From Crenothrix polyspora (lineage in GTDB: Bacteria; Pseudomonadota; Gammaproteobacteria; Methylococcales; Methylomonadaceae): a stretch of DNA of 64,000 nt. Both the position numbers and the translations under genes were made by a program. Under the pieces are notes generated by a model that saw only the letters and a list, made by a program, of their open reading frames with translations, had not been told where the DNA came from and ran no database searches. The stretch covers positions 1 to 64,000 of the forward strand of contig NZ_FUKI01000131.1 in assembly GCF_900163755.1 (NCBI RefSeq), written 5' to 3'. Shown here in pieces: positions 3,544 through 63,800 of the stretch (positions are counted from its first letter, which is position 1; each line of letters begins with the position of its first letter).

Positions 3544-3578
3544 GATAGGTACATAAGATTATGTGAGTCATTAAAAGA

Positions 3579-41153: not shown

Positions 41154-42039
41154 AATGCCTCCCTATTATTGTGTGTAAGCCAACAATACGCAGATAAGCC
41201 AATTTGATTACTCAGATGACAGTATCTAACGCATCGACAAATTATTTTTATTCTACCACTCAATTTGTATTCATATTGATTTAGAACAACTGAGACCGCT
41301 TTAAATAGTAAGCTTCACTTGTTTAATCATAAGGTTTTTGTGCCTGTGGCAGTGGGATTGGATGAGTCAAAATTAACCACTGTATTTATTGTATTTCCAT
41401 AAAAAACATCCACTTATAATTATCAAGGCTGGGTCACTTAATTTTACAACTTATTAGGCTGGTTTACTGTAACCAATGTGTTAAAACATGAGTGAATACA
41501 CATAAGCCGTATAGATAAGCGTACAATAACAACAAAATTATTAGATAATTTTACAAAAAACGATATTTACGTTTTTATTATGCGTTTTTTTTAGCGTGAT
41601 AGCTAAAATTAATGTGTCAGTTTTATATACATAAGCTCAATAAATAAGCGGTAATTACTGGTTTATCGTCTAAGCATTAACTGGAAAAATCATACGATTT
41701 CATTATTTATATAAAAAATATCGCTATCTAATTCGAAAATTACATTTTAAATCAATTTATTATGTATTAATCTAAGGTGGCTTTGTAATGTTTTCGTGCT
41801 TTTACAATATCTTTCTTAAAAAATGGCTTGAAAAATGCTGAGCCTAATGTATTGCTGTTTTTTAGTTATTAAAGCCTTTAACCGATCGTAAATATACTTA
41901 AGGAACGCGCACGAAATAACTTGAGCAAGTTCATGCTTCGACAGGCTCAGCACGAACGGTGGTGGCGTTTAAGTTGTTCAAGTTATTTCATGCACGTTCC
42001 TAAGTTGTGTCGCTAATACCACTTGATCAAGAGTCAAAA
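41154..42039. other. Long AT-rich intergenic region
   Basis: 886 bases between divergent genes, with no supported reading frame. It is very AT rich from 41280 to 41870. The nested palindrome with a REP core at 41897-42004 lies at its right end, only 35 bases before the start of the secreted protein gene. Confidence 0.6.
41897..42004. repeat. Nested palindrome with REP core
   Basis: The outer arms are CTTAAGGAACG and CGTTCCTAAG, continuing as CACGAAATAACTTGAGCAA against TTGTTCAAGTTATTTCATG. The loop holds TTCGACAGGCTCAGCACGAACGG (split here as TTCGACAGGCTC and AGCACGAACGG), the same REP type as at 23314-23443 but as a single copy. Confidence 0.8.
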
Positions 42040-44487
42040 ATGTCCATACATCGCACTTTTTTTGCCAAAAAATACACTTATTTAATAATACCCAGTGCAT
42101 TAGCTTTATGCACAACAGCTCAGATGGCCAATGCCGCTGTACGTAATGCTATTGTGCTTGAAAATTTAAAAAGAGGAACTAATGCATGGCAACACGTTGA
42201 TCAAAGCAAATTAATCGGTTCTAAAAGACCCAACGCTGGGCCAACTATTGCGAGCGCTATGCCAAACGTAAGCGCGGAAACGGCAACTTGTACCACCCGT
42301 TCACCGGCTTTCCCTTGGGGGGGTGACGATTGTATTAGTGGTTATACCTCGACACCCAGTGTTAATAAAGGCGGTAGTATTGATTTTAAAGTTAGCGTTA
42401 ATCCGGCGCAAAATTTTACCATCAATTTTTATCGCTTGGGTTGGTACGGTGGCAATGGTGGTACATCGGTAACTAGCACAGCCGCTTTGCCCGCAACAAC
42501 CCAGCAACCCTGTGTTATGGAATATAAAACAGGGCTTGCCGAGTGTAATTGGTCTAACAGCTACACCTTAAATGTCCCGTCCACGTGGACAACCGGTGTT
42601 TATTTGGCGCAACTTACTAGTGCAACAGGCTGGAAAAGCGAAATTTTATTTGTGGTAAAAGATGACAGTCGTCCAGCGGATTTCTTATATGAAGTCCCTG
42701 TATTAACTTACTTAGCTTACAACAATTATCCTGATGGTACTGGTAAAAGTCTTTATGACAGCAACAGTGCCGGTAATGCCAAGGCGGTTAAAGTTTCATT
42801 GGATAGCCCGCAAGATCATCAATTTGGCACCTGGTTAGGTTCGGATTGGACTGAAATTCATCTTGTCGCCTGGTTAGAAAAAATGGGCTACAACATAAAC
42901 TATACCACCGATCTTGATGTGCATACGGCAGCCGCCAATTTAAAAGCTTATAAAGGCGTTATTATTGGCGGGCACAGTGAATATTGGACTAAAGCCATGT
43001 ATGACAACACTGAGCAAGCACGCGATGCAGGGGTCAACTTGGCATTTTTTGGTGCGAATGCAGCGCATTGGCAAGTTCGCATGGAAAACTCCAGTTCAGG
43101 TATTCCTAATCGCGTATTGACGTGCTACAAAGATGAGAATGGCTCATCGAATGATCCTGTCAAGGATGCAACACAAACTAAAAAATGGCGTGATTTAGGC
43201 CGTGCCGAGCAAACGCTTATTGGTGTACAGCATGACATAGATGGCTGGAATCTGGGTTTATCTAATCAGCACGCGCTAAAATTACAAGAAACTAACCATT
43301 GGGCGTACAACGGCAGTGGCTTAAGTGATGGAAATCTCATACCGTATTTAGTGGGTTATGAAATTGATAATTTTAATCCGAGTTACCCTAAGCCACCGCT
43401 GTTAACACCAACCAGCCAAACTTTCATAGCCGAATCGCCTTACTATAATCACAGTAACGCACTTTATAAATCGCAAGCATCGCTTTACCAAGCGCCGAGT
43501 GGTGCATGGGTTTTTGGCTCTGGTACTATGTCTTGGAGTTGGGCTTTAGCCAAACAAGCTTCCGATTCGTATGTTTTTCAAAACACCGCTATCCAAAAAG
43601 TCACACAAAATATTTTAGATGCTTTCAAAAGCAAACCTACATCCAGCAATCGTTCTCCTGTGGCCATAAACGACAGTGCCAACGTTAATCAAGATGCTAC
43701 GGTCAGTATATCTGTATTAAATAACGACAGTGACCCTGATGGCAATAGTTTAACAATCAGTGCGGTAGGTGTGGCTGCACACGGTGTGGTTGCAAATAAT
43801 GGGACATCAATTACGTATACACCTACCGCCAGTTACTATGGTAACGACAGTTTTAACTACACTGTAAGTGATGGCTTTAATGGCACGGCCACAGCCAATG
43901 TTGCTGTTAGCGTTAATCGTGTTAACCGTGCGCCGATAGCGAATAAAGACAGTGCGGTTGTTAATCAAAACGCTACGGTCAGTATATTGGTATTGAATAA
44001 CGACAGCGACCCTGATGGTAATAGTTTAAAAATCAGTGCGCTGAGTACTGCGGCACACGGTGCGGTTAGCCATAATGGCCGTGTAATTACTTATAAACCT
44101 GTCGCTAATTACAAGGGTAATGACAGCTTTACTTATACTATAAGTGATGGCTTTAATGGCACGGCCACAGCCAGTGTCGATGTTACCGTTAAACCTATCA
44201 CTTATGCCAATCGCCGTCCGATAGCAATACGGGATTCTGCTAAAGTGATTAGTTTACGTACCAATAAGGTAGTCAGTATTTCTCCGCTTAATAACGACTC
44301 CGACCCTGACGGTAATACATTAACATTGCTTGGCTTTACCAAACCCAAAAGAGGCACGCTAACGCAAAATGGTAATGTTTTAACTTTTACCGCAACTAGC
44401 AGCGGCCAAGATAGCTTTAACTATACAATTTCTGATGGATTGGGTGGTACAGCTACTGCGCCGGTTTATATAACTATAGGCAAATAG
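42040..44487 (+). CDS. Secreted N,N-dimethylformamidase-beta-like protein with three Ig-like (VCBS/tandem) repeats
   Basis: 815 residues from the ATG at 42040; a GTG at 42007 is in frame but would put 11 residues before the signal peptide. The signal peptide ends near QMANA. Residues about 60-530 match the family named after the dimethylformamidase beta subunit, with FYRLGWYGGNGG, PVLTYLAYNNYPDG, VIIGGHSEYWT and the LAFFGANAAHWQVR stretch. Three repeats of about 95 residues follow, each with NNDSDPDGNSL and NDSFNYTVSDGFNGTA. These are calcium-type adhesion repeats. Whether the catalytic domain still hydrolyses an amide is unknown. It lacks a PEP-CTERM or LPXTG-like end. Confidence 0.8.
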   Translation: MSIHRTFFAKKYTYLIIPSALALCTTAQMANAAVRNAIVLENLKRGTNAWQHVDQSKLIGSKRPNAGPTIASAMPNVSAETATCTTRSPAFPWGGDDCISGYTSTPSVNKGGSIDFKVSVNPAQNFTINFYRLGWYGGNGGTSVTSTAALPATTQQPCVMEYKTGLAECNWSNSYTLNVPSTWTTGVYLAQLTSATGWKSEILFVVKDDSRPADFLYEVPVLTYLAYNNYPDGTGKSLYDSNSAGNAKAVKVSLDSPQDHQFGTWLGSDWTEIHLVAWLEKMGYNINYTTDLDVHTAAANLKAYKGVIIGGHSEYWTKAMYDNTEQARDAGVNLAFFGANAAHWQVRMENSSSGIPNRVLTCYKDENGSSNDPVKDATQTKKWRDLGRAEQTLIGVQHDIDGWNLGLSNQHALKLQETNHWAYNGSGLSDGNLIPYLVGYEIDNFNPSYPKPPLLTPTSQTFIAESPYYNHSNALYKSQASLYQAPSGAWVFGSGTMSWSWALAKQASDSYVFQNTAIQKVTQNILDAFKSKPTSSNRSPVAINDSANVNQDATVSISVLNNDSDPDGNSLTISAVGVAAHGVVANNGTSITYTPTASYYGNDSFNYTVSDGFNGTATANVAVSVNRVNRAPIANKDSAVVNQNATVSILVLNNDSDPDGNSLKISALSTAAHGAVSHNGRVITYKPVANYKGNDSFTYTISDGFNGTATASVDVTVKPITYANRRPIAIRDSAKVISLRTNKVVSISPLNNDSDPDGNTLTLLGFTKPKRGTLTQNGNVLTFTATSSGQDSFNYTISDGLGGTATAPVYITIGK

Positions 44488-44610: not shown

Positions 44611-45204
44611 TTAAGCACGATGTCGTCTTCCTGCGCTTTTTGAAAAAACGACTTTATAAGCAGTGAGTTGATTAGTTTTTTCGCATGTTGCGCCAGTGCG
44701 TCTAATTTCATTCATTACTTTTTGAGGTGTGCCAGCTGGGCATTTGACGTGAACGGTACCGTGAGATTTACGTAATTTACTATTTGAATTAGACAGAAGT
44801 CGTCGTGCTGCTGGTGATAAATGACGACCTGAAACCATTCCTACATTCGATACAGTTAGTGTTTCTTTTTTGATTTCACGGGCGGCCTTACCCTGTACCG
44901 TTACATTAGCCTCATCAATACTGTCCCGCTCCGCACCGACCTGATTTTTCCAAACAGCCTCTTGCTCCACAACAGACTCACTAAAAGAATCCGCAAACGC
45001 GTATGCAGCTGCTCCACAGACAAGTGCACCAGTACCAGCACCTATAGCCATCCCTTTTCCGCCGTCTGCAAAAGCGCCCACTATCGCACCAAGACCTCCA
45101 CACGCCAATGCGGCTAATCCAGTGTTTCTTGTTCTTGGATCATTAGTTGCACAACCGTTAAGTGTAAGCGTTGTTACTAATAGGACAAATAATAATTTTT
45201 TCAC
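44611..45204 (-). CDS. Glycine-zipper lipoprotein
   Basis: 197 residues, GTG start after GAGGAAATAAAC. The lipobox is TLNGC with the lipid-bearing Cys near residue 18. A glycine-zipper-like membrane stretch follows (GGLGAIVGAFADGGKGMAIGAGTGALVCGAAAY), as in small outer-membrane proteins that insert in membranes. The rest is hydrophilic and basic, with a final KSAGRRHRA. It is last in a minus-strand set with the proline-rich TM protein and the kinase, so it may be an outer-membrane partner. A second frame overlaps its 3' end (44490-44711); a late frameshift could extend it, but this is not supported by any motif. Confidence 0.7.
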   Translation of the reverse strand: MKKLLFVLLVTTLTLNGCATNDPRTRNTGLAALACGGLGAIVGAFADGGKGMAIGAGTGALVCGAAAYAFADSFSESVVEQEAVWKNQVGAERDSIDEANVTVQGKAAREIKKETLTVSNVGMVSGRHLSPAARRLLSNSNSKLRKSHGTVHVKCPAGTPQKVMNEIRRTGATCEKTNQLTAYKVVFSKSAGRRHRA

Positions 45205-45225
45205 GTTTATTTCCTCTATTTTTAG

Positions 45226-45771
45226 TTAATTTTTGAGTAATCTATCCACCATTGCGGCGGCTTCACGTTCTATGTCGGATGGCGGCGTTCTAGGTCTAGT
45301 AGGTCTAGTGGGTCTAGTGGGTCTAGTGGGAATGGGGTGGTGTACTATACGCGGAGCTATTACATGGCCACGTCTAGGTGGTGTCTTGGGTGGCACTCTT
45401 ATAGTTGTAGTGTTGGGTTTTAGTGGGGGCTGTGTCTCTACAGGTAACGGATTTGAAGCTCCTGGCAATTTTGGCGGAATTTTTACTGATGGCGGCTGTA
45501 CATTGACAATTTCGTCTTTTACTTTTGGGGTATTATCAAGTGGAACAATTGGCGCAATTGGTTTGGCTTCTTCAGCAGGCACTGTCGTTTTAAGTGTTGC
45601 GGCAGAGGTTACGGAGGGCTGTGAAATCGGCGGAGCAACCGTTTTATCAAGGTTAAAAATGGCTATTGCACTGCCTAACAAAACCGCTAAAAAAATAATG
45701 CCAGGGTAATCCAAGCAAAATTGTTTAATGGGTTTAAGCCGTTCTGTATTAGCTGAAGCGGGGGGGGGCAA
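45226..45771 (-). CDS. Single-TM proline-rich protein, probably the detached C-terminal part of the kinase
   Basis: 181 residues counted from a TTG inside the kinase 3' end. There is a short basic cytoplasmic part (NTERLKPIKQFCLDYPG), one TM segment (IIFLAVLLGSAIAIF) and a long Pro/Thr/Lys-rich extracytoplasmic part ending in four PTR-type repeats and DIEREAAAMVDRLLKN. The only upstream start (TTG) lies against a nine-base C run (45760-45768 as G on the plus strand) and has no Shine-Dalgarno. Deleting one C would fuse it in frame to the kinase, giving the usual kinase-TM-extracellular layout of membrane Hanks kinases. It is therefore probably part of that protein, either by frameshift or because of a sequence error. 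Confidence 0.6.
   Translation of the reverse strand: MPPPASANTERLKPIKQFCLDYPGIIFLAVLLGSAIAIFNLDKTVAPPISQPSVTSAATLKTTVPAEEAKPIAPIVPLDNTPKVKDEIVNVQPPSVKIPPKLPGASNPLPVETQPPLKPNTTTIRVPPKTPPRRGHVIAPRIVHHPIPTRPTRPTRPTRPRTPPSDIEREAAAMVDRLLKN
45293..45328. repeat. Nine-base tandem repeat GGTCTAGTG
   Basis: Four copies (three identical, one with a final A) encode Pro-Thr-Arg units in the proline-rich protein. The repeat keeps the reading frame when its number changes, so length variation would be tolerated. Confidence 0.85.
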
Positions 45772-46576
45772 AGGCGATCTGCTTACGCAATGCCTCGCTA
45801 AATTCGCGGGCGCTGGAAAAACGTTTTTCAGGGTTTTTTTCTAATGCCTTAAGTACTAGCCGTGCTATTTCCTTGGGTATTTCTTCTGAGAAAGTACACG
45901 GCGATTTCGGCTTTTCATTAATATGCGCCTGTTGCAGTTCAAATTCGGTATCTTTTACAAAAGGGATTTGCCCCGTTAACATTTCATACAATACTATGCC
46001 TACGGCATAAATATCCGAACGTGCATCCGTCTCATGCGCTTTAATTTGCTCTGGCGACATATATTCCAGCGTGCCAATGGCATGGCGGGTTTTCGTCAAT
46101 CTGGCGGTATTTAAAATTCGGGCAATGCCAAAATCCAGGATTTTTACCGTTTTTTGCTCGGTAATCATCAAATTAGAGGGCTTAATATCACGGTGTACAA
46201 TATTAAAACTATGCGCGTGATCCAAGCCATCCAAAATTCCTATGGCATATTGCACGGCAATTTGCCACGAAAGTCGGCCTTCTTTACTGATGACAGAATC
46301 AAGCGTTTCACCTTTTACATACTCCAAGACCATGTAGAACATGTCATTTATCTGATCAAATTCATAAACAGTCGCAATATTGGTATGGCTCATTCGCGCC
46401 TGTGCTATCGCTTCCGATTTAAAACGCTCAACAAGATCTTCTCGGCTACTTAATTCCGGCTGTAGAAATTTAATGGCAACATCGCGGTTAAGCCTGACAT
46501 GGGCATATCTGTAGACTTTGCCCATACCGCCTTCACCGATCTCGCCAACGAAGTTAAAATTATTAATGGGAATCAT
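45749..46576 (-). CDS. Hanks-type serine/threonine protein kinase
   Basis: 275 residues, nearly all kinase domain: GEIGEGGMGKVY (glycine loop), Lys36 in VAIKFL, HRDIKPSN with catalytic Asp130, DFG at 148-150, GTLEYMSPEQ, and SDIYAVGIVLYEMLTG. All catalytic residues are present. It phosphorylates Ser/Thr on partner proteins; the neighbouring PP2C phosphatase and FHA protein are its likely antagonist and reader. The frame ends 12 residues after the domain, just past a nine-base C run, while the shifted frame continues as a TM and proline-rich domain. The stop may therefore be premature. Confidence 0.92.
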   Translation of the reverse strand: MIPINNFNFVGEIGEGGMGKVYRYAHVRLNRDVAIKFLQPELSSREDLVERFKSEAIAQARMSHTNIATVYEFDQINDMFYMVLEYVKGETLDSVISKEGRLSWQIAVQYAIGILDGLDHAHSFNIVHRDIKPSNLMITEQKTVKILDFGIARILNTARLTKTRHAIGTLEYMSPEQIKAHETDARSDIYAVGIVLYEMLTGQIPFVKDTEFELQQAHINEKPKSPCTFSEEIPKEIARLVLKALEKNPEKRFSSAREFSEALRKQIAFAPPRFS

Positions 46577-46593
46577 AATAAAGTGTCTGTAAG

Positions 46594-47454
46594 TTAAACG
46601 CGGGTAACGGGGGCTTCTTTTAAAACAGGTGGTTTATCAACGATTTTGACGACAATCACCGAAATATTGTCGTGACCACCGCGTTCATTGGCTAAATCAA
46701 CCAGCTGTTTGCAAGCGTCTTGTGCAGGGCACTCAACAATGATTTGGCTGATTTCATTGTCAGTCACCAAATCGTATAAACCATCTGAACACAGCAAAAA
46801 GCAATCACCGATTTTAATGGCCAGCGCTTCAGTAGATGAATCTACTTTTTCATCTACTTTAGTGCCTATCGCACGGGTAATCCAATGTCTATCGGGATGG
46901 TTTTCAGCCGCTTCCGGTGTTAATAAACCGCCTCTCACCATATCGGCTACCATCGTGTGATCCTGTGATAACTGAGTACATTCACCTTTGCTACATTTAT
47001 ATAAACGGCTATCGCCCGCATTGGCATAATAGGCAAAGCCGTCTATTAACGCTAAAGCAACCAGCGTTGTTCCCATACCTTTGAGTTCGGGTGTAGTCTG
47101 GGATAATTGATAAATGCGTGTATTGGCCTCATGAAAGCTTTTTTGTAAGGCGTGTGCATAATCACCCATGCCCAGATAGTCGGAAAATTTTTGCTGAACA
47201 ACTGCCACCGCCGTGTGGCTGGCAACCTCGCCACCTTGGTGGCCACCCATGCCATCAGCCACCACGACCAAAAAATTACGCTTATCTGAAAAACGCACAC
47301 AGCCTATGTTGTCCTGATTGTTTGATCGCTCAAGGCCCACATCCGAAAACAGGCCTATATCGGAAAAATAAACTTCTGGTGCTCTGTTTAAGTTCATATA
47401 TTTTGGTCGTTTAAATTTGAAAAATAGATGGCTAAAGAATCGCTTTATTGGCAT
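46594..47454 (-). CDS. PP2C-family (Stp1/PppA type) protein phosphatase
   Basis: 286 residues. The metal-binding and catalytic motifs are complete: ERSNNQDN, VVVADGMGGHQGGEVAS, GMGTTLVALAL, NAGDSRLY, LCSDGLYDLV and GGHDNISVIVV. It removes phosphate from Ser/Thr residues and should oppose the kinase encoded 17 bases downstream. No signal or TM segment is seen, so it acts in the cytoplasm. An alternative start at Met20 (47397) lies closer to the domain. Neither start has a clear Shine-Dalgarno. Confidence 0.92.
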   Translation of the reverse strand: MPIKRFFSHLFFKFKRPKYMNLNRAPEVYFSDIGLFSDVGLERSNNQDNIGCVRFSDKRNFLVVVADGMGGHQGGEVASHTAVAVVQQKFSDYLGMGDYAHALQKSFHEANTRIYQLSQTTPELKGMGTTLVALALIDGFAYYANAGDSRLYKCSKGECTQLSQDHTMVADMVRGGLLTPEAAENHPDRHWITRAIGTKVDEKVDSSTEALAIKIGDCFLLCSDGLYDLVTDNEISQIIVECPAQDACKQLVDLANERGGHDNISVIVVKIVDKPPVLKEAPVTRV

Positions 47455-47492
47455 TTTTTATTAATCTAGCGTATGAACAGGATGGTTTTTGT

Positions 47493-49202
47493 TTACATAA
47501 ATTCTTTTGCATGTTTAATGGGAACCGCAAAAGACACCATTGTGCCGTTGGCATCTTTCTTTATGGCAGTAAAAATACCAATCACATGGCCTTTGTCGTT
47601 AAATACCGGTCCGCCGCTGTTGCCGCTGCCTGTGGCAGTGACGGTTAATTGATAAGCATCATTCAGTTCGCTATAACTGTTCGCCGCCTCTGAACTGGTG
47701 ATGACTTTACCGATAGCACCTGGGGTGACGGTAACATCTGGAATTGTTAACCATGTACCCGACTGGTTTTGTCTTGCATTGTCCGGAGAAATGCCCGGAT
47801 AGCCTATAACCGTAACGGGCGCTCCTGCTGAAACTGGATCATCAAAGCCCATTTCAACCGGTTGCAGTTTTTTTGTCGGCTCTATTTTTATGAGTGCAAC
47901 ATCGGCATTGCCAGATATAGGGCCTGCATGAGCCGGAAGCCTTAAGCTTGTGCCTTTAAAAGTGACATCCAAATAATCATAACGGCCTTCAACAAGCTTG
48001 CCGCGCAAAGGTGTTTGGCCGAGCATTTTAGCTTTGGTAGGAATCCATTTTTTTAACGACGCTAGGTATTCATTACTGCTGGCATCGTTTGCCATTGGTT
48101 TTAGCGTGGGGGCTGAGCAGGCACTGTCATTACATACCATTAAAATACCGGGCAGTTTAAAGTCTGTGCTTTGCGTCATTTCCCACGGTGCGGCAACATG
48201 GCGATTAGTCAATATATGACCGCCTTCAGTAATTACAAAACCAGAGCCAGAACCGGAAGCACCAATAGAGATACCGTTTTCAAAATCTAAAAACGGTTCA
48301 ACTACGCCATCAATGAGGACATACCAAGGCATTTTTTCGCTAACGCACTTGCCTTTAGCATCGGTAGCACAGCCAAATTTTTGAAACACTTGTTTACCGG
48401 TGGGCGTGTATATGAGTTTCCAGCTCATTTCGATTAACACGGTTGAATTGCCAAATTGAGTCTGAATATTTTCCGCGTTTAACTGGGCGTTGTTTGTTAT
48501 GTTATCAATCGCCTGTTGCTGAGCCTTATTGTTACTTGCGTTATCTAGTGCGGCTTGCGTATTGTTTTTTTGGATTTCTAATTTATCCTGATAAATTGTG
48601 TAAGCAAAAATGCTAGATGCCAAAATAACAATGCCGATAATACTCGCGCCCATATTGATCATTTTTTTCCGGTCATGGTTTACCGCTGTGCTAATTAAGC
48701 GCTCTGCCGTTTTTTCACCAATCTTCTTTGATTCTGGTGATGTCATCGTCGAATTTGTTGGCAGTGACCCGTTTGAAGCCGAGGTGTTTTGAACCACCTT
48801 TGTCTGTGGCGTGGAAGGCAGTATTGCGGTAGGTTTTGGCCCGATGAGTTTGGTTTTTGGTGTTGCTGGATCAAGATTAAACGTAAATTTAACGCTGCCC
48901 TCATCCTTGTCGCTCTTGCCCAATTGGACTTCATCATTGGCTTGCAATTGTTTAGGCGTTGTTATTTTTACGTTGTTAACAAAGGTTCCATTTGAGCTAT
49001 TAAGATCGGTTAACAAAAATTGATTTTTATTTTGAACAGTAATTTTGCAATGTCGGGTACTAACATAAGCATCTTTTTCTGCATCGAAAGCCACTTGGCA
49101 ATCACTGCTTCGACCAAAAACAATTTCTTCGATAGGCAATTCAAAAACGTCTGTTTGATTGGATTTTGATCCTGTCACATGTTTGATGATAATTTTTTGC
49201 AT
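47493..49202 (-). CDS. FHA domain - transmembrane - trypsin-like serine protease
   Basis: 569 residues from the ATG at 49202, which follows AAAGAGGCCAAG; an in-frame start at 49304 lacks this. The cytoplasmic FHA domain (about 20-108) has GRSS, STRH and SSNGTFVN, the phosphothreonine-binding pattern. A linker and a TM segment (about 183-204) follow. The periplasmic part holds an HtrA/trypsin-type protease with His335 (TNRHVAAPW), Asp434 (GNADVALIKI) and Ser529 (GSGNSGGPV). No PDZ domain is seen. It is first in the FHA-PP2C-kinase operon. A reading of cytoplasmic phosphorylation coupled to periplasmic proteolysis is inference. Confidence 0.88.
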   Translation of the reverse strand: MQKIIIKHVTGSKSNQTDVFELPIEEIVFGRSSDCQVAFDAEKDAYVSTRHCKITVQNKNQFLLTDLNSSNGTFVNNVKITTPKQLQANDEVQLGKSDKDEGSVKFTFNLDPATPKTKLIGPKPTAILPSTPQTKVVQNTSASNGSLPTNSTMTSPESKKIGEKTAERLISTAVNHDRKKMINMGASIIGIVILASSIFAYTIYQDKLEIQKNNTQAALDNASNNKAQQQAIDNITNNAQLNAENIQTQFGNSTVLIEMSWKLIYTPTGKQVFQKFGCATDAKGKCVSEKMPWYVLIDGVVEPFLDFENGISIGASGSGSGFVITEGGHILTNRHVAAPWEMTQSTDFKLPGILMVCNDSACSAPTLKPMANDASSNEYLASLKKWIPTKAKMLGQTPLRGKLVEGRYDYLDVTFKGTSLRLPAHAGPISGNADVALIKIEPTKKLQPVEMGFDDPVSAGAPVTVIGYPGISPDNARQNQSGTWLTIPDVTVTPGAIGKVITSSEAANSYSELNDAYQLTVTATGSGNSGGPVFNDKGHVIGIFTAIKKDANGTMVSFAVPIKHAKEFM

Positions 49203-51739: not shown

Positions 51740-52519
51740 ATGTTAAAAAAAGAATTATCGGATGAAGATTATTGGAAACTCTACAAAGCCTTTTGCAAAG
51801 GCGACCAGCGGGCAAGCAAGGATTTGGTAGATCAGTTGGGCAAGCGCTTATATAACTACGTTAAAAAAATTAACTATAACCTAAGTAAGGGACATACTTT
51901 AACTTATACTTGCGAAGAAGATTTTCAAGATTGTGTAGAGCATACATGGGAAAAGTTGATTGAAAATTGCACTAAGCCTTTTAAGCAAATTAATTTTTGG
52001 AGTATTGCAAGTACTATCGCCAAGTGCAAGTTATTTGACGATTGGCGAAAAATAATGGTTGAGAAACGCAACTTGGGTGAAAAACTGTCAATTGATGATG
52101 ACACCAAATCGGAATACGGGAATGATTTTGGTGAAAAAAGACCTAACAAAGCCGAATGGGAAAACAGTATTGATCCTAGTGTAAATAGACCCAAAAACTC
52201 TGAAGAATTGGCTATGATTGAACAATTTTTTGAGTTTCTGGAATTTTTACCAGAAAATCAGCAATGGGGAAACATTTTTGATCCTTATGCCAAAACGCCT
52301 GATGAATTAGAAAAAGTTCGGCAATTTATTGAGGCGGTAACGTTATTGCCAGAAAAACAGCGAGCAGCACTGATTTTGCAACTGGAGGGCTATTCTAAAG
52401 CCGAAATCGCTGACATCACGGAAGAGAAAGTAGAAACTGCTAAAAATCAAATCCGTTTGGCTAAGGATAAAATAAAAAAATTCTTATTCCCGGAAACAGG
52501 TTACAAGGACACCTATTAA
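51740..52519 (+). CDS. ECF-like sigma-70 family RNA polymerase sigma factor
   Basis: 259 residues. The N-terminal half has region-2-like helices (FCKGDQRASKDLVDQLGKRLYNYV; CEEDFQDCVEHTWEKLI). The C terminus has a clear region 4 helix-turn-helix, LPEKQRAALILQLEGYSKAEIADITEEKVETAKNQIRLAKDKI (read as consecutive parts). Between them is an unusual acidic insertion of about 80 residues. It would direct RNA polymerase to a special promoter set. The ATG follows AGGAAATTTA. The next gene, 19 bases on, encodes a single-TM protein that could be its anti-sigma. Location near the CHAT genes suggests, but does not prove, that it controls them. Confidence 0.8.
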   Translation: MLKKELSDEDYWKLYKAFCKGDQRASKDLVDQLGKRLYNYVKKINYNLSKGHTLTYTCEEDFQDCVEHTWEKLIENCTKPFKQINFWSIASTIAKCKLFDDWRKIMVEKRNLGEKLSIDDDTKSEYGNDFGEKRPNKAEWENSIDPSVNRPKNSEELAMIEQFFEFLEFLPENQQWGNIFDPYAKTPDELEKVRQFIEAVTLLPEKQRAALILQLEGYSKAEIADITEEKVETAKNQIRLAKDKIKKFLFPETGYKDTY

Positions 52520-52538
52520 GCATGAGAGGTTCTAAATT

Positions 52539-53120
52539 ATGAATTCCAATACGCCCCCGTCTACTGAAGATGATGAAGCTTTCGATCTGACATTGCAGAA
52601 ACTTTACCGTTCGGCATTGTTTGATGAGAAATTTCAACAACAAGTTGCTGCTGACTTACGCGCATTACCACCACAAGCGCGGGCTAAGTTAAATGCTGCC
52701 GACCGTGCGTTTATGGAAGATGCCGATTTACCTGATGCACTGGCCAAAAAACTCATGGCCATGACCTGTGGCTGTAAGCCTAAGCCGTGGTGGAAAAAGC
52801 TGTTTTCATTCAATTTTGATATGGGCAATTTTCTGTCCCCCGCCTTTTCGGTACCTGTGTCTTTAATGGCGGGTGTGTTGTTAGGGGTTTTACTGCCTAA
52901 ATTCATGCAGCCTAATACGTCATTTGAATCTTTGGGTGGTGATACTCCAGAAGCGGTACAACATGCAACGTTGGGAGAAATTGCCAAAGAAACCAAGGAC
53001 GATCCGAAACAATGGTTATCCGCTATTGCTGATTTGGTGCGGCAAGGCAAAGCGTCCGAAGCCCAGAAGCAGTTACAGGAATTTGGAATGCGCTATCCGG
53101 GTTATTCTACCTCTGAGTAA
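52539..53120 (+). CDS. Single-TM protein, possible anti-sigma factor
   Basis: 193 residues. The N-terminal cytoplasmic part of about 85 residues is helical and acidic and ends in MTCGCKPKPWW. One TM segment follows (about 105-127, VPVSLMAGVLLGVLLPKF), and a 65-residue periplasmic tail ends with QLQEFGMRYPGY. The ATG follows GAGAGGTTCTAAATT, 19 bases after the sigma gene, so they are one operon. This layout is that of membrane anti-sigma factors, but I see no known anti-sigma domain. Confidence 0.65.
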   Translation: MNSNTPPSTEDDEAFDLTLQKLYRSALFDEKFQQQVAADLRALPPQARAKLNAADRAFMEDADLPDALAKKLMAMTCGCKPKPWWKKLFSFNFDMGNFLSPAFSVPVSLMAGVLLGVLLPKFMQPNTSFESLGGDTPEAVQHATLGEIAKETKDDPKQWLSAIADLVRQGKASEAQKQLQEFGMRYPGYSTSE

Positions 53121-53349: not shown

Positions 53350-53634
53350 ATGACACAAGAAACCCTACGTACATCTCGAATTGAAGCCCGTATTACGCCC
53401 GATGCGCTGGCCATTGTTAAACGCGCTGCTGAGCTTGAAGGCCGCAGTGTGAGCGATTTTGTGGTGTCTTCCGCCCAGGAGGCGGCACGCCGTACGATTG
53501 AAGAAACTAGCCTCATCCGTTTATCTTCGGAAGACCAGCGGCGTTTTGTTGACCTGCTGCTCAACCCGCCGCCAATTTCTCCGGCATTGGTTCGCGCCAA
53601 AGAAGCCCACGCGCAGTTGTTCGGTTCGGAGTGA
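53350..53634 (+). CDS. TacA-type antitoxin (DUF1778)
   Basis: 94 residues. TSRIEARITPDALAIVKRAAELEGRSVSDFVVSSAQEAARR is the ribbon-helix-helix domain of DUF1778 antitoxins, followed by the toxin-neutralising tail LSSEDQRRFVDLLLNPP. It binds the acetyltransferase toxin encoded next and represses the shared promoter. The ATG follows AAGGAGGACTCATA. Its TGA overlaps the toxin GTG start as GTGA. Confidence 0.9.
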   Translation: MTQETLRTSRIEARITPDALAIVKRAAELEGRSVSDFVVSSAQEAARRTIEETSLIRLSSEDQRRFVDLLLNPPPISPALVRAKEAHAQLFGSE

Positions 53635-54125
53635 CGGGACGGTTTAGCATTGAGGTCTTGGCCAATAGTCACAACCGGCAAGGGTTTTACTGTGGTGTGG
53701 AGGCTTTAGACCGTTATTTTTTGCAACAGGTGACGCAAGATGTAAGGCGACGGGCGACAGCGTGTTATGTAGCGGTGGAAACAGATACTGGCCGCATTGC
53801 CGGTTATTATACGCTGGCAGCGGGCGGCATCCCTTTAAAGGATATGCCAGAAGACATTATAAAACGCCTGCCACGCTACCCGTCAGTTCCGGTTGCTCGA
53901 TTGGGGCGGCTTGCCATTGGCAGTGGTTTTCAGGGGCAAAAGCTGGGCGCAGGGCTGTTGTGGGATGCCTTGTTACGGTCTGCACGTTCCGAGGTGGCGG
54001 TTTTTGCGCTGGTTGTGGATGCCAAGGACGACACGGCGGAAAATTTTTACCGTCATCATGGTTTTGTTGGTTTTGGTTCGCTGCACCATCAGTTGATCTT
54101 TCCTTTGACAAAATTTACAACTTGA
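53631..54125 (+). CDS. TacT-type GNAT acetyltransferase toxin
   Basis: 164 residues with a GTG start overlapping the antitoxin stop. FYCGVEALDRYFLQQVTQDVRRRATACYVAVETDTGRIAGYYTLAA (in parts) begins the GNAT fold; the acetyl-CoA loop is LAIGSGFQGQKLGAGLLWDAL; and NFYRHHGFVGFG carries the Tyr needed for catalysis. Such toxins acetylate charged aminoacyl-tRNAs and stop translation. It looks intact. With TacA it forms a complete module placed between the sigma-factor pair and the first CHAT gene. Confidence 0.9.
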   Translation: MTGRFSIEVLANSHNRQGFYCGVEALDRYFLQQVTQDVRRRATACYVAVETDTGRIAGYYTLAAGGIPLKDMPEDIIKRLPRYPSVPVARLGRLAIGSGFQGQKLGAGLLWDALLRSARSEVAVFALVVDAKDDTAENFYRHHGFVGFGSLHHQLIFPLTKFTT

Positions 54126-54187: not shown

Positions 54188-57100
54188 TTATTCTGTCGCA
54201 ACCGGTATCGCCCCACCTTCGCCCAAAATAACAAACGGTGCCCAGTAAGCCGGATGCGAAGGGATGTATTTGCCTTCTAAGCCTAATTTGCATTTCCAAT
54301 TGCAACGGGTCTCCCTGTTGATCAACTCCTGCATACTGTGTTGTAAGGCTTCAGCACGGCTGAGGGTTGGGTGGTCGCGCAAGTCTTTAAAGAGGTGGCG
54401 GGTTAGGTTTTGCATGGTGTTGGCATCCACTTTCCATTGCGAGGCCAACACGCTACGCGCCCCCGCCACAAAAAATCCTTTGGACAATTGCGACAGACCT
54501 TCCGGGCTATCTTGCATAGCGGCGGTTTCGCAGGCGGCCAGTAACACCCAGTCGGCATCCAAATCCAGGGTGGCGGCTTCGCTGCCAGTCAGGTAGCCGT
54601 CATCTTTGCCGCCAGTTTCCAATGCCGGTGTTAATAGGCTAGCCTCATCGATGGATTTATCGCCGCTTTTGGCTGGGAGTGTCATCACCAAGCCCGGCTC
54701 GCCAACCGGGGGCAACAGCGCATGGGTGGCAAAACCCACAATGCGGTGCTGGCGTAACCGCCCTTCATCACTGAGTTGTTTGACTTGGCTTTCGGTGGCC
54801 TCTTGCTCCAGAAAAAGTGCTTTTGGCGGCTCTGTTGTCACACCTAATTTTTCGGCAATGTCTTTTAACGCGATGGCAGTTTGCGGAAGGTTGTCCAGAT
54901 TCTCGCGCAGGGTTTCGCTGGCATCGCCGCCCAGTGCCACGTATTGCCCCAGGCTTTGGAATTGTTCTGACGGTTGGCTTGTTTGGGCAACCTGGCCTTC
55001 TTTGAGTATCGGGTTACCAAAACCGATGAATGGGGCTTTGGCGTGCGAGCCTTGTTGTAGGTTGTGGTTGCCGCGCAGGTAGGCCAAGGAGTGTACGGCA
55101 GGCAGGTAGGAGAAGGCGTAATGCTTTGCCAGCCAGTCGGCATGGGCGTAATCGCCATGTTCCTTAGCAGGATCGGGTGTGGCGGGTGGTTTGGTTTTTA
55201 CCAATAAATGCAAGGGTAATTTTTGCAGGGCATCATCTGTTACGACGATGATGTGTTTTACGTCGGTGAGTTCCTTTTCGATGGGTTCAAAAATGTTGGT
55301 ATATAAACCATATGCGGCTCTTATATCAAAAGGCTTTAATCCATTTTGTGGATTTTTCAGGGATTCATGCAAGTTATCTACATTATTACTGATGGATTGG
55401 TGTTTTGCGTTAAGACGATGCAAAACCGGCGCTTGCCCAGGCCGCACCACAAACACATAGGAAGCCTCTTCATCCACCAGGTAGGCCAACAGGGCTTCAT
55501 CGTGTTTTAACAGGGACTGCGCTTTTTCTAAGGTAATGGGTTCTGGGTGGATTAACTGGGCATAGGCTGGGAATTCCTGTTGCAATGCTTTATCTAGCTT
55601 ATCAATTTCTTGTTCGGCTGCTTGTTGTTTTATTTGTAACTCTTTGGCTATTGCAACACTTTCCTGGCCAGGTTTACTCAGCATTTCAATATACCGTTTA
55701 TCCAAATCTTGCCAAAGCGTTTGTTGGTTCCACAATGCCTGCACTTTTTTCTGGATGTCTGGATTGCGGCTACTTAAGCGCAGTGCGGTTTGTTGTAGAG
55801 ATTGGGTTCGTTGGTCGCCGTGGGCAAGTTGCAGGGTTTGAAAGGCTTCGGGCAGATTTGTTAACTGGCTTGTTTTAGGGTTTGCCATCAACTTTTGTTG
55901 CAGACGGAACAGTAGACGGGCAATATTTCTCCGTTTATTGAAGATGTCAACACTTTGGCGTGGTTTAGAATCTGAAACATTTGTATTTTCAGACAATGCT
56001 TGCATTTTGGTGTAAATAATAGCTATGGATTGTCGGGCAAAATTGAAGGCGTTAACAGTATCCCCCTTTTTTTCCTGTAATACAGCCAGATCGCTTAGGG
56101 TATCAGCGGTATCCTGACTGTTTGGATAATGAGCTTGCTCTTTAGTAAGTACTTCTTGATACAAGGTTTCGGCTTTGGTGTAATCACCTTGATCACGGTA
56201 AATATTAGCTAATTGACGTTGAATTCTATTAATTACGTGGTGATAGGGTTTTGTTTTTAATTGAATAGCTAAAGATAAACTTTTCTCGTATAGGGGTATG
56301 GCATCTTCATGTTTTTTTTGTAGTCTATAACAATTTGCCAATCTACTTAACGCCTGTGAGTGTATCCATTTTTTATTGTTATTTAATGAGTCATTCTCTA
56401 ATTCTTTAATAATTTGTTTGCGTAATTTTTCTGCATTGCTGAGTAACGATTTTTTTATACTCATGTCACTACTATTTTCAGCTTGTAACTCATACAAAGA
56501 AGCTAAATGGGAAATATTCTTCAATATATCAAGATGTTGATCCATGTATATCTTTGGTACGGCTGTTTCCCTTATGGATATACTACGTTGCAGCAATTGT
56601 TCTGCTTTTTCATACCAGCCAATGTCGACATATAAATTCCCTAAATCCTGTATGACTCTTGCTTTATCATCTTGATATTGTGTGCTCATTGCTTTTTTTA
56701 AAAAACTCTCTGCCCGGCCATATTGCTCGTGCTCAAGGTAAAAATATCCTAAATCATTATAAATTTTTGAATGAAGCTCACTATCATCATATTTATTTTT
56801 TATTATTAATGATAAACGTTGCAAATAGAGTGCCTCTGCATCATGGTATAATCCTTGTGCAGAAAGAGTATCTGCTAAGAATTTTTGAAGACCAAGAAAA
56901 CGCCGAAAGCTTCTACGTTTCAACTTGCTTTCAACGTTAAGTGCTTGTCGAATAACCTTTTCTGCCTGTGGATACTTCCCCTGTTTCCAGAATAGTTCCC
57001 CAATATCTCCCATTATTGACACGGTACTATGGCTATAATCATTTAATTTAAGTTGAGTAATGAGTGCTTGTTGCAGCAATTTTTCTGCCTCCGCACAACG

Positions 57101-58858
57101 TTCCTGCTCACAGTAAATTTCAGGCAATTTGAACAAGACAGAAGGGAGAATTTCCCCATTTTTTTGCCAAATAGATACTGCATTTTTGAAATTTTTTTCA
57201 GCTTTAGCATATAGCCCTTGCTTGTAATTAATATCTCCAATTTTTTCAAATGATATTGCAATATCACCATGGTTTTCCGGCAAAGTCTTTTGCCTATTCA
57301 CAAGAAGTTCACGTTGTAGGGATTCAGCTTTGTTGTAGTTATGTCGGCGAAGTTCAGAGTCAACATACGACTCAAGTATTTCTCCTGGTGTAATATGTGA
57401 ATGAGAATAATCATTATGGCTAATAGATAAAGCCAATGCCTTTTTATATAAAATTTCAGTAGACGAATCATAACGATTTTTTATACTACGAACCTCAGCT
57501 AGATTTTTCAAACAATCCACCAAACGATCTTTGTATTCGACTTCTATATTTTTATATTCGGCAATCAAATCTTCATCGGTAATATTGACGAGGCTTAGTG
57601 CTTCTGAATTATTTGTCTTCAAGGTATCTAAGCATTGCTGATAAAAGTTTTCAGCTTGTTGAAAATGGTTTTGTTCAATATGAAAGTTTCCAATATAAGA
57701 TAAGTATTCCGAAACCGAAATAAGTGCGTTGGCTGCTTCTAATTGTTTTTCTGCTTTGGAGTAATCGCCTGCTTCCCCTGCTTTTATACCAGCGGTTATA
57801 AGATCATCCCAAGATGCACCTGCAACCGTATTAGCTTTAGCTTCTGTCAAGGCTAAATGAAGTTTTACTTCTTGTTCTTGGGAGTTTTCACTATCTTGGG
57901 ATTCATCTTCTATATCCAATATTCGATGCCATTTATCCTCATCATCTGGAGAACCCTCGTCTGTTAAATTTTGCTGAATAGCGCTGTTTTCACTTTCCGT
58001 AAGGGTGTGATTAAACGTACCAGTGGCTTGGGCTTGGGTGGTGTAAGTGAGCTTTGATAATTTATCATCGTTTATGAATTCCAACATAGTGCCATCCTTT
58101 GAACCGTCAGGCACTTGTAACCAAGCTTGGCACAAATCATCAAATACATAACGCAAAGGTTGATTTACAGTTATTTCCTTCTGGTCTGGACATTGGGTTT
58201 TACCTTTTATCCTGCCTGCACCATTGTCATCAAGTAGCCAGTAACCCTTACCTTGACATAGCTTGTCACCAACAGTAAATTTTCCCTGATATTCATAATT
58301 ACCTTGCAGCTTTTTTGAAGGGCACTTATCGAGCGCCTTAAACGTTAAAGCATGCCACTCTGCTTGCAATTGCTGCCATGTTTTTTGGTAGATCGGTAAA
58401 TCTTTATATGGCTTGCCATTGTTAGCCCAATTTACTTGTCCTTGTTGAATGGTTTTGATTTCATCTGATGATAGTGAATGGCTAAACCTAGCGAAGGCTT
58501 GATCTTGTGCATATTGAAATAATTTTATTGTGCCGTCTGGCATTACTTGGAAATCATTTGAATTACTGGTAAGGCTGGAATCCCCCCAACAACTAGAACT
58601 CAATTTATACCGAAAAACGTTGTTATAAAATCTTCTTTCCAATTCAGGGCAGTTACTGCTTTTCATTTCGTCCAAACCTAAGCCCTTACCATCCACTAGC
58701 CACGTGCCTGAATACTGGCATTGTTGACCTTGAAACTTCAGTACCCCCTGATACGAATAACTCCCCTTCAGCGTAGCATTTGAACACCCCGCATAAACGT
58801 GGCTTGTAAAAAATATCAAGCTAACGGTGTAAAGCCAAAACTGCTTGCTGCTTGCCAT
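54188..58858 (-). CDS. Exported TPR-CHAT domain protein (caspase-fold protease)
   Basis: 1556 residues from the ATG at 58858, which follows GAGAGGGGATTTAC; the ATG at 58882 lacks this. The signal peptide is MASSKQFWLYTVSLIFFTSHVYA. Two small cysteine domains follow (Cys25, 47 and 70, and a second copy with similar spacing near 190-235, each C-x4-L-x-G-x-Y). TPR repeats occupy about residues 350-970. The C-terminal 350 residues are a CHAT domain with the caspase-like dyad His1379 (FATHALL) and Cys1443 (LLAACETA). CHAT proteins are proteases or scaffolds that cut partner proteins; most are cytoplasmic, so export is unusual. The 3' 1.7 kb is highly similar to the second copy at 60850. Confidence 0.88.
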   Translation of the reverse strand: MASSKQFWLYTVSLIFFTSHVYAGCSNATLKGSYSYQGVLKFQGQQCQYSGTWLVDGKGLGLDEMKSSNCPELERRFYNNVFRYKLSSSCWGDSSLTSNSNDFQVMPDGTIKLFQYAQDQAFARFSHSLSSDEIKTIQQGQVNWANNGKPYKDLPIYQKTWQQLQAEWHALTFKALDKCPSKKLQGNYEYQGKFTVGDKLCQGKGYWLLDDNGAGRIKGKTQCPDQKEITVNQPLRYVFDDLCQAWLQVPDGSKDGTMLEFINDDKLSKLTYTTQAQATGTFNHTLTESENSAIQQNLTDEGSPDDEDKWHRILDIEDESQDSENSQEQEVKLHLALTEAKANTVAGASWDDLITAGIKAGEAGDYSKAEKQLEAANALISVSEYLSYIGNFHIEQNHFQQAENFYQQCLDTLKTNNSEALSLVNITDEDLIAEYKNIEVEYKDRLVDCLKNLAEVRSIKNRYDSSTEILYKKALALSISHNDYSHSHITPGEILESYVDSELRRHNYNKAESLQRELLVNRQKTLPENHGDIAISFEKIGDINYKQGLYAKAEKNFKNAVSIWQKNGEILPSVLFKLPEIYCEQERCAEAEKLLQQALITQLKLNDYSHSTVSIMGDIGELFWKQGKYPQAEKVIRQALNVESKLKRRSFRRFLGLQKFLADTLSAQGLYHDAEALYLQRLSLIIKNKYDDSELHSKIYNDLGYFYLEHEQYGRAESFLKKAMSTQYQDDKARVIQDLGNLYVDIGWYEKAEQLLQRSISIRETAVPKIYMDQHLDILKNISHLASLYELQAENSSDMSIKKSLLSNAEKLRKQIIKELENDSLNNNKKWIHSQALSRLANCYRLQKKHEDAIPLYEKSLSLAIQLKTKPYHHVINRIQRQLANIYRDQGDYTKAETLYQEVLTKEQAHYPNSQDTADTLSDLAVLQEKKGDTVNAFNFARQSIAIIYTKMQALSENTNVSDSKPRQSVDIFNKRRNIARLLFRLQQKLMANPKTSQLTNLPEAFQTLQLAHGDQRTQSLQQTALRLSSRNPDIQKKVQALWNQQTLWQDLDKRYIEMLSKPGQESVAIAKELQIKQQAAEQEIDKLDKALQQEFPAYAQLIHPEPITLEKAQSLLKHDEALLAYLVDEEASYVFVVRPGQAPVLHRLNAKHQSISNNVDNLHESLKNPQNGLKPFDIRAAYGLYTNIFEPIEKELTDVKHIIVVTDDALQKLPLHLLVKTKPPATPDPAKEHGDYAHADWLAKHYAFSYLPAVHSLAYLRGNHNLQQGSHAKAPFIGFGNPILKEGQVAQTSQPSEQFQSLGQYVALGGDASETLRENLDNLPQTAIALKDIAEKLGVTTEPPKALFLEQEATESQVKQLSDEGRLRQHRIVGFATHALLPPVGEPGLVMTLPAKSGDKSIDEASLLTPALETGGKDDGYLTGSEAATLDLDADWVLLAACETAAMQDSPEGLSQLSKGFFVAGARSVLASQWKVDANTMQNLTRHLFKDLRDHPTLSRAEALQHSMQELINRETRCNWKCKLGLEGKYIPSHPAYWAPFVILGEGGAIPVATE
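54197..55935. repeat. Long direct repeat: 3' part of CHAT gene, second copy at about 60863-62602
   Basis: The two minus-strand CHAT genes share about 1.74 kb from the region encoding ARLLxRLQQKLMA to the end. Long identical peptides such as QTALRLSSRNPDIQKKVQ and HPEPITLEK occur in both. The copies are in the same orientation, 6.67 kb apart, so recombination between them would delete the first CHAT upstream part, the TPR gene and the small membrane protein gene. Confidence 0.85.
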
Positions 58859-59193
58859 GTAAATCCCCTCTCGTTTCAACACAACGCCTTAGTACAGCAC
58901 ATGTGTATCAGATTTTACGTAAGCTATTTCTTACATATACACAATGCCGACCGATTTTAACACTGTTTATAAACGGCTATGCAAGTCTATGTTTAAAAAG
59001 CGGTGTAGGCTGGTTGGTTCCATGCTTGTGCGCTTTACAACAAACTACTCAAAAAAAAATTTTTGTCAGATTTAACCCCATTTGTTAATGAGCAACGTAT
59101 TAGTTAATGACAGCACAGCAATAGGCTTTGACGGAAACCAAAAAATCAAAGCCGTGCAGTCTTAGTTAACAACATTAACCTGTGGAGACGCCC
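58859..59193. other. Divergent promoter region between CHAT and TPR genes
   Basis: 335 bases. No reading frame is supported. AT-rich stretches near 58910-58990 and 59048-59075 could hold promoters for the two divergent genes. I found no clear shared sigma-factor motif. Confidence 0.4.
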
Positions 59194-60849: not shown

Positions 60850-63800
60850 TTAAGGTAATTGTGCTGTGGCAACCGGTATCGCTCCACCTTCACCCAAAAT
60901 AACAAACGGTGCCCAGTAAGCCGGATGCGAAGGGATGTATTTGCCTTCTAAGCCTAATTTGCATTTCCAATTGCAACGGGTCTCTCTGTTGATCACCTGC
61001 TGCATACTGTGTTGTAACGCTTCTGCGCGGCTCAAGGTTGGGTGGTCGTGCAAGTCATTAAACAAGTGGCGGGTTAGGTGTTGCATGGCGTTAGCTTCCA
61101 CTGGCCATTGCGAGGCCAATACGCTACGCGCACCGGCCACAAAAAAACCTTTGGACAGTTGCGACAGCCCTTCGGATGTGCCTTGCAGGGTGGCGGTATT
61201 GCAGGCCGCCAGCAATACCCAGTCGGCATCCAAATCTAAGGCGGCGGCTTCGCCAGCGGTCAGGTAGCCGTCATCTTTGCCGCTACTTTCCAGCGCCGGT
61301 GTTAAATTCAGGTCAGCTTCATCTACGGATTTATCGCTTTTAGGTGGCGGTGTCAATACTAGGCCAGATTCACCGATTTCAGGCAACAGCGCATGGGTGG
61401 CAAAGCCAACAATACGGTGTTGGCGCAAGCGCCCTGAATCGCTGAGTTGTTTTACTTGGCTTTCGGTAGCGGATTGGTCCAGATAAAGTGCTTTGGGGTC
61501 TGTTAAGCTTGTTACACCGAATAAGGCGGCAATGTCAGTTAACGCGATGGCCGTTTGCGGTACGCTGACCAGATTCTCCCGCAGGGTTTCGCTGGGGTCG
61601 CCGCCCAGTGCCACGTATTGTCCCAAGCTTTGAAACTGTTCTGATGGTTGGCTTGCTTTGGCAACCAGGTTTTCTTTGAGTAACGGGTCGCCAAAACCGA
61701 TGAACGGGGCTTTGGCGTGCGAGCCTTGCCGCAGGTTGCGGTTGCCACGCAGATAGGCCAAGGAATGCACGGCAGGCAGGTAAGAGAATGCGTAGTGCCG
61801 TGCCAGCCAGTCGGCATGGGCGTAATCGCCGTGTTGCGTATCAGGAGTGGCGGGTGGCATGGTTTTTACCAACAAATGCAGCGGCAATTGTTGCAAAGCA
61901 CCGTCTGTTACAGCAAGGATGTGTTTTACGCCGTTTAGCTCCGTTTCGATGGGTTTAAATATCTTTTCATATAAACCGTAGGCGTATTTTAACTCGAAGG
62001 GTTTTAATTCTTGCTGTGGGTTTTTCAGGGCTTCACTCAAGTGGGTCACGCTATTACTTATGGCTTGATGACCTCTGTCAAGACGATGCAACACCGGTGC
62101 TTGCCCAGGACGCACCACAAACACATAGGAAGCTTCTTCATCCACCAGGTAGGTCAGCAGCGCTTCATCAGGTTTTAACAAGGCTTGCACTTTCTCTAAA
62201 GTAATGGGTTCTGGGTGAATTAACTGGGCATAAGCTGGAAAATCCTGCTGCAATGCCTTGTCTAGCTTCTCAATTTCCTGTTCCGCCACTTGTTGTTTTA
62301 TTTGTAACTCTTTGGCTATTGCGGCGCTTTCTTGGCCGGGTTTGCTCAGCATTTCAACATAACGTTTATCCAAATTTTGCCAAAGCGTTTGTTGGTTCCA
62401 CAACATTTGCACTTTTTTCTGGATGTCTGGATTGCGGCTACTTAAGCGCAGCGCAGTTTGTTGTAGGGATTGGGTTCGTTGGTCGCCGTGGGCAAGTTGC
62501 AGGGCTTGAAAGGCTTCGGGCAGATTTGTTAGCTGGCCTGTTCTAGAAGCCGCCATTAACTTTTGTTGTAGACGAACCAATAATCGGGCGGTATTTTTCC
62601 GGTTGTCGATAAGCTCGGCACTTTGAGACGAGCCATTACTGGAAGCGCTTTTATGTCCAGTCAGTGTTTGTATTTTGGCATGAATGGCTAGAGATTGCCG
62701 GGTAAAGTCCAGGGCTTTAACGGTGTCCCCTTTTTTATCGTGTAATATAGCCATAGCACTTAAGGTGATGGCGATAGGCGGATTATTGGGGTAATTGGCC
62801 TGCTCTTTATCAAGCACTGCCTGGTACAAAGTTTCAGCTTTGGCCTGACCATCACGATCACCAATATCCCGATAAATGCCAGCTAAGTTTCGCTGGGTTT
62901 TATTAATTGTGGGGTGATACGCAGGCAGTATTTTTTGTTGGATGGCTAAGCTTTGCTCATACAAAGGCTTGGCTTCTTTATATTTTTCCTGATCCTGTTT
63001 CTGGTCTTGATAGCAGGTTGCCAAATAATACAAGGTATCTGATAGTACTTGAGCATTGTCGTCTGACGGCATTGCCTTCGCCACGGCGAGCGCCTGTTTG
63101 TAAAGTGTTTCGGCTTTTTCAAAAAGCGCCTGGCTTTTGCTCCCATCTAGTTTTCCTGCTTGCTGCTGGTAAAACCGAGCCAAGTTATTCATACTATGCG
63201 CAAGATCGGGGTGGTTTTTCCGTAAGGTTTTTTGGCGGATAGCCAGGCCATTTTGCAGCAGTGGTTCAGCTTTTTCGTATTGTTCTAGAGCAACATACAT
63301 ATAAGCTAAGTTCGACATCACCAGTGCAATATTGGGATGTGATGGCGGCAATTCTCTTGATGCAGTGGCCAACGCTTTTTTTAAGTAGGGTTCTGCCTTA
63401 CCGTATTGCCCCAAGGTCATATATAAATTGCCTAGGTTGTTATAAGACTGACTAAGACTGGGAGAGCCATCTGGATTTAAAGTCTCTTGCGTTTTCGTAC
63501 TTTCCAGAAAGAGTTCTTTTGCTTCCTGATAGCGGCCTTGTTGCATGAGCGTGGTTGCCAAATTGTTTTGACATATAGCGATTGCCCCAAAATTCTTAAT
63601 TGGGTAATTTTGCCGTCTCTCCAAAACTTGCCGGTATATCTTTTCCGCATTACCCGTCATCCCTTGATCCGAATAACTGAGTGCAAGGTTGTTCAGTGCA
63701 TTAAAAGTGAAAGGATGATTTTCGCCATGTAATTTACGCAGGATATCGAGACTTTGTTGCAAGAGCTTTATTGCTTCGCCGTAGCGTCCTTGCTCTTGCT

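Follow-up and report, generated by a model that had tools for sequence, protein, structure and literature searches.

A conserved operon of methane-oxidising bacteria encoding an FHA-transmembrane-protease, a PP2C phosphatase, a kinase and a lipoprotein: a possible envelope phosphosignalling module

A unit of four genes, which encode an FHA-transmembrane (TM)-protease, a PP2C-type phosphatase, a membrane-spanning Ser/Thr kinase and a lipoprotein, is conserved in methane-oxidising bacteria and is independent of type VI secretion loci. The unit was analysed in a stretch of 64,000 nucleotides from Crenothrix polyspora (contig NZ_FUKI01000131.1, positions 1 to 64,000), referred to here as the window. 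We give even odds to its being a self-contained envelope phosphosignalling module, in which an envelope-sensing kinase and a phosphatase would use an FHA domain to gate a periplasmic, HtrA-like protease that lacks a PDZ domain. The targets of bacterial Ser/Thr kinases usually lie in the cytoplasm, and envelope proteases, DegS among them, are under control from outside; if the proposal is true, the module would exert inside-out phospho-control of envelope proteolysis, the reverse of the usual outside control.

The module spans positions 44611-49202 and consists of five minus-strand open reading frames (ORFs), with neighbours 17-38 bp apart or overlapping, as follows:

47493-49202, minus strand: FHA-TM-trypsin-like serine protease P0001, 569 aa (Pfam FHA 7.8e-20, Trypsin_2 1.4e-19)
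46594-47454, minus strand: PP2C-type Ser/Thr phosphatase P0002, 286 aa (NCBIfam Stp1, 251 bits with a cut-off of 230; metal-binding motifs)
45749-46576, minus strand: catalytic part of a Hanks-type Ser/Thr kinase, P0003, 275 aa as assembled (Pfam Pkinase 8.3e-61; catalytic motifs)
45760-45768, minus strand: C9 tract, where the frame of the kinase diverges from that of the TM segment and tail
45226-45771, minus strand: C-terminal half of the kinase gene, with a TM helix and a proline-rich periplasmic tail (homology to the one-ORF kinases of relatives)
44611-45204, minus strand: outer-membrane-type lipoprotein with a lipobox (LNGC), a glycine zipper and an OmpA-like topology in its C-terminal domain (homologues in 5 other loci; weak match to NCBIfam YiaD)

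A preliminary description of this DNA had counted five genes in one direction; the five ORFs are present, but the genes number four, the fifth ORF being the tail of the kinase. The kinase and phosphatase proposed there were borne out by the family matches given above and by complete motifs (Lys, HRD and DFG in P0003, all metal motifs in P0002), and the lipoprotein by its lipobox, glycine zipper and homologues. P0002 passed the Stp1/IreP model (NF033484). With the model for PASTA-type kinases of the PknB/Stk1 kind (NF033483), the kinase scored 341 bits against a cut-off of 450, in a match confined to the kinase domain, and its tail matched no Pfam or NCBIfam family, PASTA domains included. PADLOC matches to kinase models (PD-T4-6) were set aside as matches to the kinase domain only, with no supporting defence context.

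The four parts of P0001 are arranged along the chain as follows:

48918-49124, minus strand: cytoplasmic FHA domain, residues 27-95 (AF2 pLDDT ~90; matches the solved FHA domains 3po8, 4qcj and 6hc1)
48693-48857, minus strand: linker, modelled as disordered, in which three threonine boxes are conserved: T117 (PKTKL), T134 (PQTKV) and T165 (IGEKTAERLI)
48603-48659, minus strand: single TM helix, residues ~182-200, predicted N-in/C-out with the positive side facing the FHA domain (hydropathy and flanking charge)
47496-48467, minus strand: predicted periplasmic HtrA-like protease domain (H335, D434, S529; C278/C286, C357/C362), trypsin-like at residues 319-543 (Pfam) and running on to the C-terminus; no PDZ domain found

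The FHA residues G30-R31, S48, H51 and N71-G72 are present, and the FHA model was superimposed on solved FHA domains, that of DgcB included, with TM-scores of 0.8-0.9 on target. P0001 was aligned with 10 further near-full-length homologues of 38-55% identity. The H335/D434/S529 triad is invariant across these 11 sequences; both cysteine pairs, as read from the alignment, are found in 9 of the 11 and are jointly missing from the other two, a pattern that fits periplasmic disulfides and so supports a periplasmic location for the protease. Each FHA-protease homologue has one TM segment with positive charge on the FHA side, judged by hydropathy and flanking charge. A phospho-reader inside and a protease outside are consistent with the predicted topology, with the cysteine pairs and with catalytic residues that are all intact, in agreement with the preliminary description, which had proposed an FHA reader joined across the membrane to a catalytically complete protease. 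In the AF2 model, a long helix (residues 188-237) leads from the TM segment toward the protease, whose domain matches HtrA proteases in structure comparison; no PDZ domain was matched in P0001, and the chain ends at the protease domain.

The linker between the FHA domain and the TM helix is otherwise unconserved and was modelled as disordered (AF2), yet its threonine boxes are kept, with the consensus [KA]xTR[LI], xTRE and, near the membrane, IGRxTVERLI among homologues. A count by eye found box 1 in 11 of the 12 sequences that could be read, and box 2 in ~10. From this conservation, T117, T134 and T165 are candidate phosphorylation sites. Two homologues (L023 8390-10534 and L024 1936-4653) carry an extra N-terminal domain, which by eye is Lon/ChlI S16-like (EGSSAELGLALAL) and for which no Pfam match was obtained; the L024 protein has two FHA domains.

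The ORF at 45226-45771 had been described as a gene of its own, a proline-rich membrane arm. This reading was rejected: the ORF matches the C-terminal halves of the kinases of relatives, every comparable one of which encodes the kinase and TM as one ORF (416-736 aa, most 416-508), uninterrupted. The tail in the window shares with the C-termini of these kinases a DYP-TM junction and a tail-end motif (it ends SDIEREAAAMVDRLLKN), and one TM segment was found in every kinase from loci in the order FHA-protease, PP2C, kinase. The only start codon available to the ORF is a TTG bordering the C9 tract, and dropping one C from the tract in silico restored a single kinase-TM-tail protein. Because the tail frame and a plus-strand ORF that overlaps it could not be told apart by codon usage (LLR/codon -0.039 and -0.047), the coding status of the tail rests on homology and not on codon bias.

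The C9 tract, seen in one assembly only, possibly reflects an assembly error or gene decay, or is a site of slippage or a phase switch. Phase variation, in which slippage at the tract would switch the product from a membrane-anchored sensor kinase to a soluble, sensor-less kinase and back, is suggested by the position of the break, exactly between the kinase domain and the TM segment, by the restored frame when the tract is one C shorter, and by the rarity of such tracts: C9 or longer occurs at ~9 places in the 3.9 Mb genome, and, of the others inspected, the five that are clearly genic are located in intact reading frames (L049, L051, L054, L055 and L056), the remaining ones being intergenic or unclear. 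We nevertheless think this very unlikely, since a homopolymer sequencing or assembly error, or plain decay, explains the break in this single assembly equally well, and since the kinases of relatives have no such interruption. A G17 homopolymer in the same genome (L052 2043-2059, contig C62), in a stretch that holds two N, lies just upstream of a gene and possibly reflects promoter-length variation or an assembly artefact.

With profile searches, the FHA-TM-protease was found in 11 of 251 Methylococcales genomes, in 9 of 48 genera; in one of these carriers (L045) the gene is cut off at the contig end. Outside Methylococcales, one further carrier (G573) was found among ~550 other Gammaproteobacteria sampled, and the samples of the class, the phylum and the order of G573 yielded no others; more permissive searches of the class returned matches to the FHA region only. 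A contig scan gave a single match (L021, Methylocucumis oryzae), which ends at the contig end, and no plasmid or phage homologues of the module were found. The order FHA-protease, PP2C, kinase-TM is kept in nine loci (the window, L022, L023, L024, L039, L040, L041, L042 and L046), and in all nine a lipoprotein-like gene comes next. Two loci (L043 and L044) have the variant order FHA-protease, kinase, PP2C, kinase, followed by the contig end. Isolated pairwise matches aside, the loci share no flanking genes; the module has therefore moved, or was kept, as a block. The genes thus co-occur in unrelated genomic contexts, as the preliminary description expected, as a set of four rather than five. 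In L022, a second PP2C gene lies directly behind the lipoprotein gene (3198-3974).

The C-terminal domain of the lipoprotein was modelled with high confidence (AF2 pLDDT >90) in an OmpA-like topology, and Foldseek gave weak matches to the peptidoglycan-binding domains of MotB, SiiA and FopA (best OmpA-type E ~0.006); the YiaD family model (NF053611) scored 27.8 bits, below its cut-off of 175. The types of kinase tail and lipoprotein covary. A proline-rich or extended kinase tail, in most cases with a DIGGWAKDFF-like motif at its end, is found in 7/7 loci with a glycine-zipper-type lipoprotein (in L041 the C-terminal part of this lipoprotein differs, and in L042 most of the zipper is missing), and a Sel1-repeat tail is found with a Sel1 or other lipoprotein in 2/2 (L023 and L024, with Sel1 repeats in the L024 lipoprotein). 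No locus breaks this pairing, but the sample is small (Fisher p 0.028, uncorrected for shared ancestry). The lipobox of the fourth gene of L023 (LEGC) is approximate.

The mechanism that we favour, tentatively and at rather less than even odds, is that cytoplasmic threonine phosphorylation, read in cis by the FHA domain, directly gates the periplasmic HtrA-like protease through one TM helix, tuned by an envelope-sensing kinase tail that is paired with a dedicated outer-membrane lipoprotein. The lipoprotein and the periplasmic tail of the kinase would jointly monitor the condition of the outer membrane or cell wall; the active kinase would phosphorylate linker threonines on the cytoplasmic side of the FHA-TM-protease; the FHA domain would bind such a phosphothreonine, either in cis or on an adjacent subunit; binding would rearrange the single-TM protein so that the periplasmic domain is switched, most likely on; and the PP2C would strip the phosphate and reset the protein. 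This reading is favoured by the gene order of the nine loci, the invariant triad, the TM topology, the cysteine pairs, the threonine boxes, the covariation of tail and lipoprotein, the precedent of an FHA domain that reads its own chain in DgcB (PMC6733907), and the 8 of 12 carrier genomes that lack the type VI sheath gene VipB. Several points count against it: the partner of the FHA domain could instead be the kinase or some other protein; the kinase in the window, as assembled, is severed from its membrane tail; the AF2 model of P0001 is poor in the second half of the protease; and the OmpA-like assignment consists of topology and weak fold matches.

The same parts, and the covariation of tail and lipoprotein, would also fit a flow of information in the opposite direction. 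Sensing would then fall to the periplasmic protease domain or to its substrate; the protease, tethered by the FHA domain to the phosphorylated kinase, would cut the kinase tail or the lipoprotein, and proteolysis would in this way control kinase output. DegS-type proteases signal from outside to inside and provide a precedent. We regard this as rather unlikely: the conserved threonine boxes sit in the linker of the protease itself and therefore point to the FHA protein as the phosphotarget, and the loci share no other cytoplasmic output gene. Resemblance of the protease domain to HtrA proteases would also suit an unregulated envelope quality-control protease that the FHA domain merely positions at the kinase, with no phospho-gating; given the lack of a PDZ domain and the strong co-inheritance with kinase and phosphatase, this seems improbable to us. 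Phospho-gating of the protease would be simple to test in this module, in which a phosphothreonine reader and a periplasmic protease lie at opposite ends of one membrane helix with their own kinase and phosphatase, and the conserved threonines reduce the test to point mutations.

It would also be conceivable that the module serves type VI secretion as an accessory and, as a threonine phosphorylation pathway (TagQ/PpkA/PppA/Fha-like), steers a secretion machine encoded elsewhere. The module has the combination that marks such a pathway, a kinase, a PP2C and an FHA protein encoded together, and its three enzyme types and outer-membrane lipoprotein are as in the Pseudomonas pathway (PMC10482370). 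The preliminary description had reported that secretion genes are absent, which holds for the surroundings of the module, where no type VI genes were found, but not for the genome, in which a separate type VI cluster lies on contig C36. This cluster already has an FHA protein and a kinase of its own. The FHA-protease fusion is not concentrated at type VI loci, as it should not be if the preliminary proposal is right: VipB is missing from the 8 carrier genomes mentioned above, and in the four others (G126, G153, G573 and G000, the genome of the window) it lies on a different contig or no closer than 440 kb to the module. With the TagH/Fha family model (TIGR03354), P0001 scored 40 bits against a cut-off of 120 and is not a member. 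A link is hinted at by an FHA-TM-SLT lytic transglycosylase, which is encoded in all four VipB-positive genomes, near the sheath gene in G000, G153 and G573 and directly behind the module in G126; on balance, we consider an accessory role highly improbable. The transglycosylase genes were placed as follows:

L025 686-2356 (G000, contig C36): FHA-TM-SLT lytic transglycosylase
L039 13815-15494: FHA-TM-SLT lytic transglycosylase
G573, contig C1, 2774337-2775980: FHA-TM-SLT lytic transglycosylase

These proteins repeat the plan of a reader inside and an enzyme outside. A weaker partial match was obtained in G065, which is VipB-negative.

In OdhI and GarA of Actinobacteria, the FHA domain binds a phosphothreonine of its own chain in cis. 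OdhI is phosphorylated at Thr14 (PMC2784874), and in Bdellovibrio DgcB the FHA domain reads a phosphosite of its own chain and thereby activates the fused enzyme (PMC6733907). Unlike P0001, these are soluble cytoplasmic proteins without a cross-membrane output. The H1 type VI threonine phosphorylation pathway of Pseudomonas aeruginosa (TagQRST-PpkA-PppA-Fha1; PMC10482370) shares with the module a membrane kinase, a PP2C, an FHA protein and an outer-membrane lipoprotein upstream; the module differs in the fusion of its FHA domain through the membrane to a protease, in having no type VI linkage and in having no above-cut-off match to TagH. With the HtrA/DegS envelope proteases, P0001 shares the trypsin fold, the His-Asp-Ser triad and, as in DegS, a single N-terminal TM segment, whereas a cytoplasmic FHA domain replaces the periplasmic PDZ domain, and H335 and D434 are separated by 99 residues that include a conserved cysteine pair. 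P0001 falls below the curated cut-offs for the HtrA family (TIGR02037, 65 against 416 bits) and for DegS (24 against 423). The FHA-trypsin architecture is already known: Bacteroides thetaiotaomicron NP_811686.1, recorded in 2008 as a domain architecture only and with no operon or function reported, has FHA N-terminal to trypsin as in P0001, with two FHA domains (PMC2605481; compared by description only). No description of this operon was found in the literature searched, the coverage of which leaves out most subscription journals.

Other features were noted in the window. The module is adjoined on the opposite strand by a gene for an exported protein (42007-44487) with a DMFA2_C (dimethylformamidase beta subunit-like) domain and Big_9/cadherin-like repeats. 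An ECF-type sigma factor is followed by a small membrane protein that is possibly an anti-sigma factor (51740-53120), a TacA-like antitoxin and GNAT acetyltransferase pair is likely a TacAT toxin-antitoxin system (53350-54125), and two large TPR-CHAT (caspase-like) proteins are encoded near one another (54188-58882 and 60850-63888). A ribonucleotide reductase (3579-6860) contains an intein that carries a LAGLIDADG endonuclease domain.
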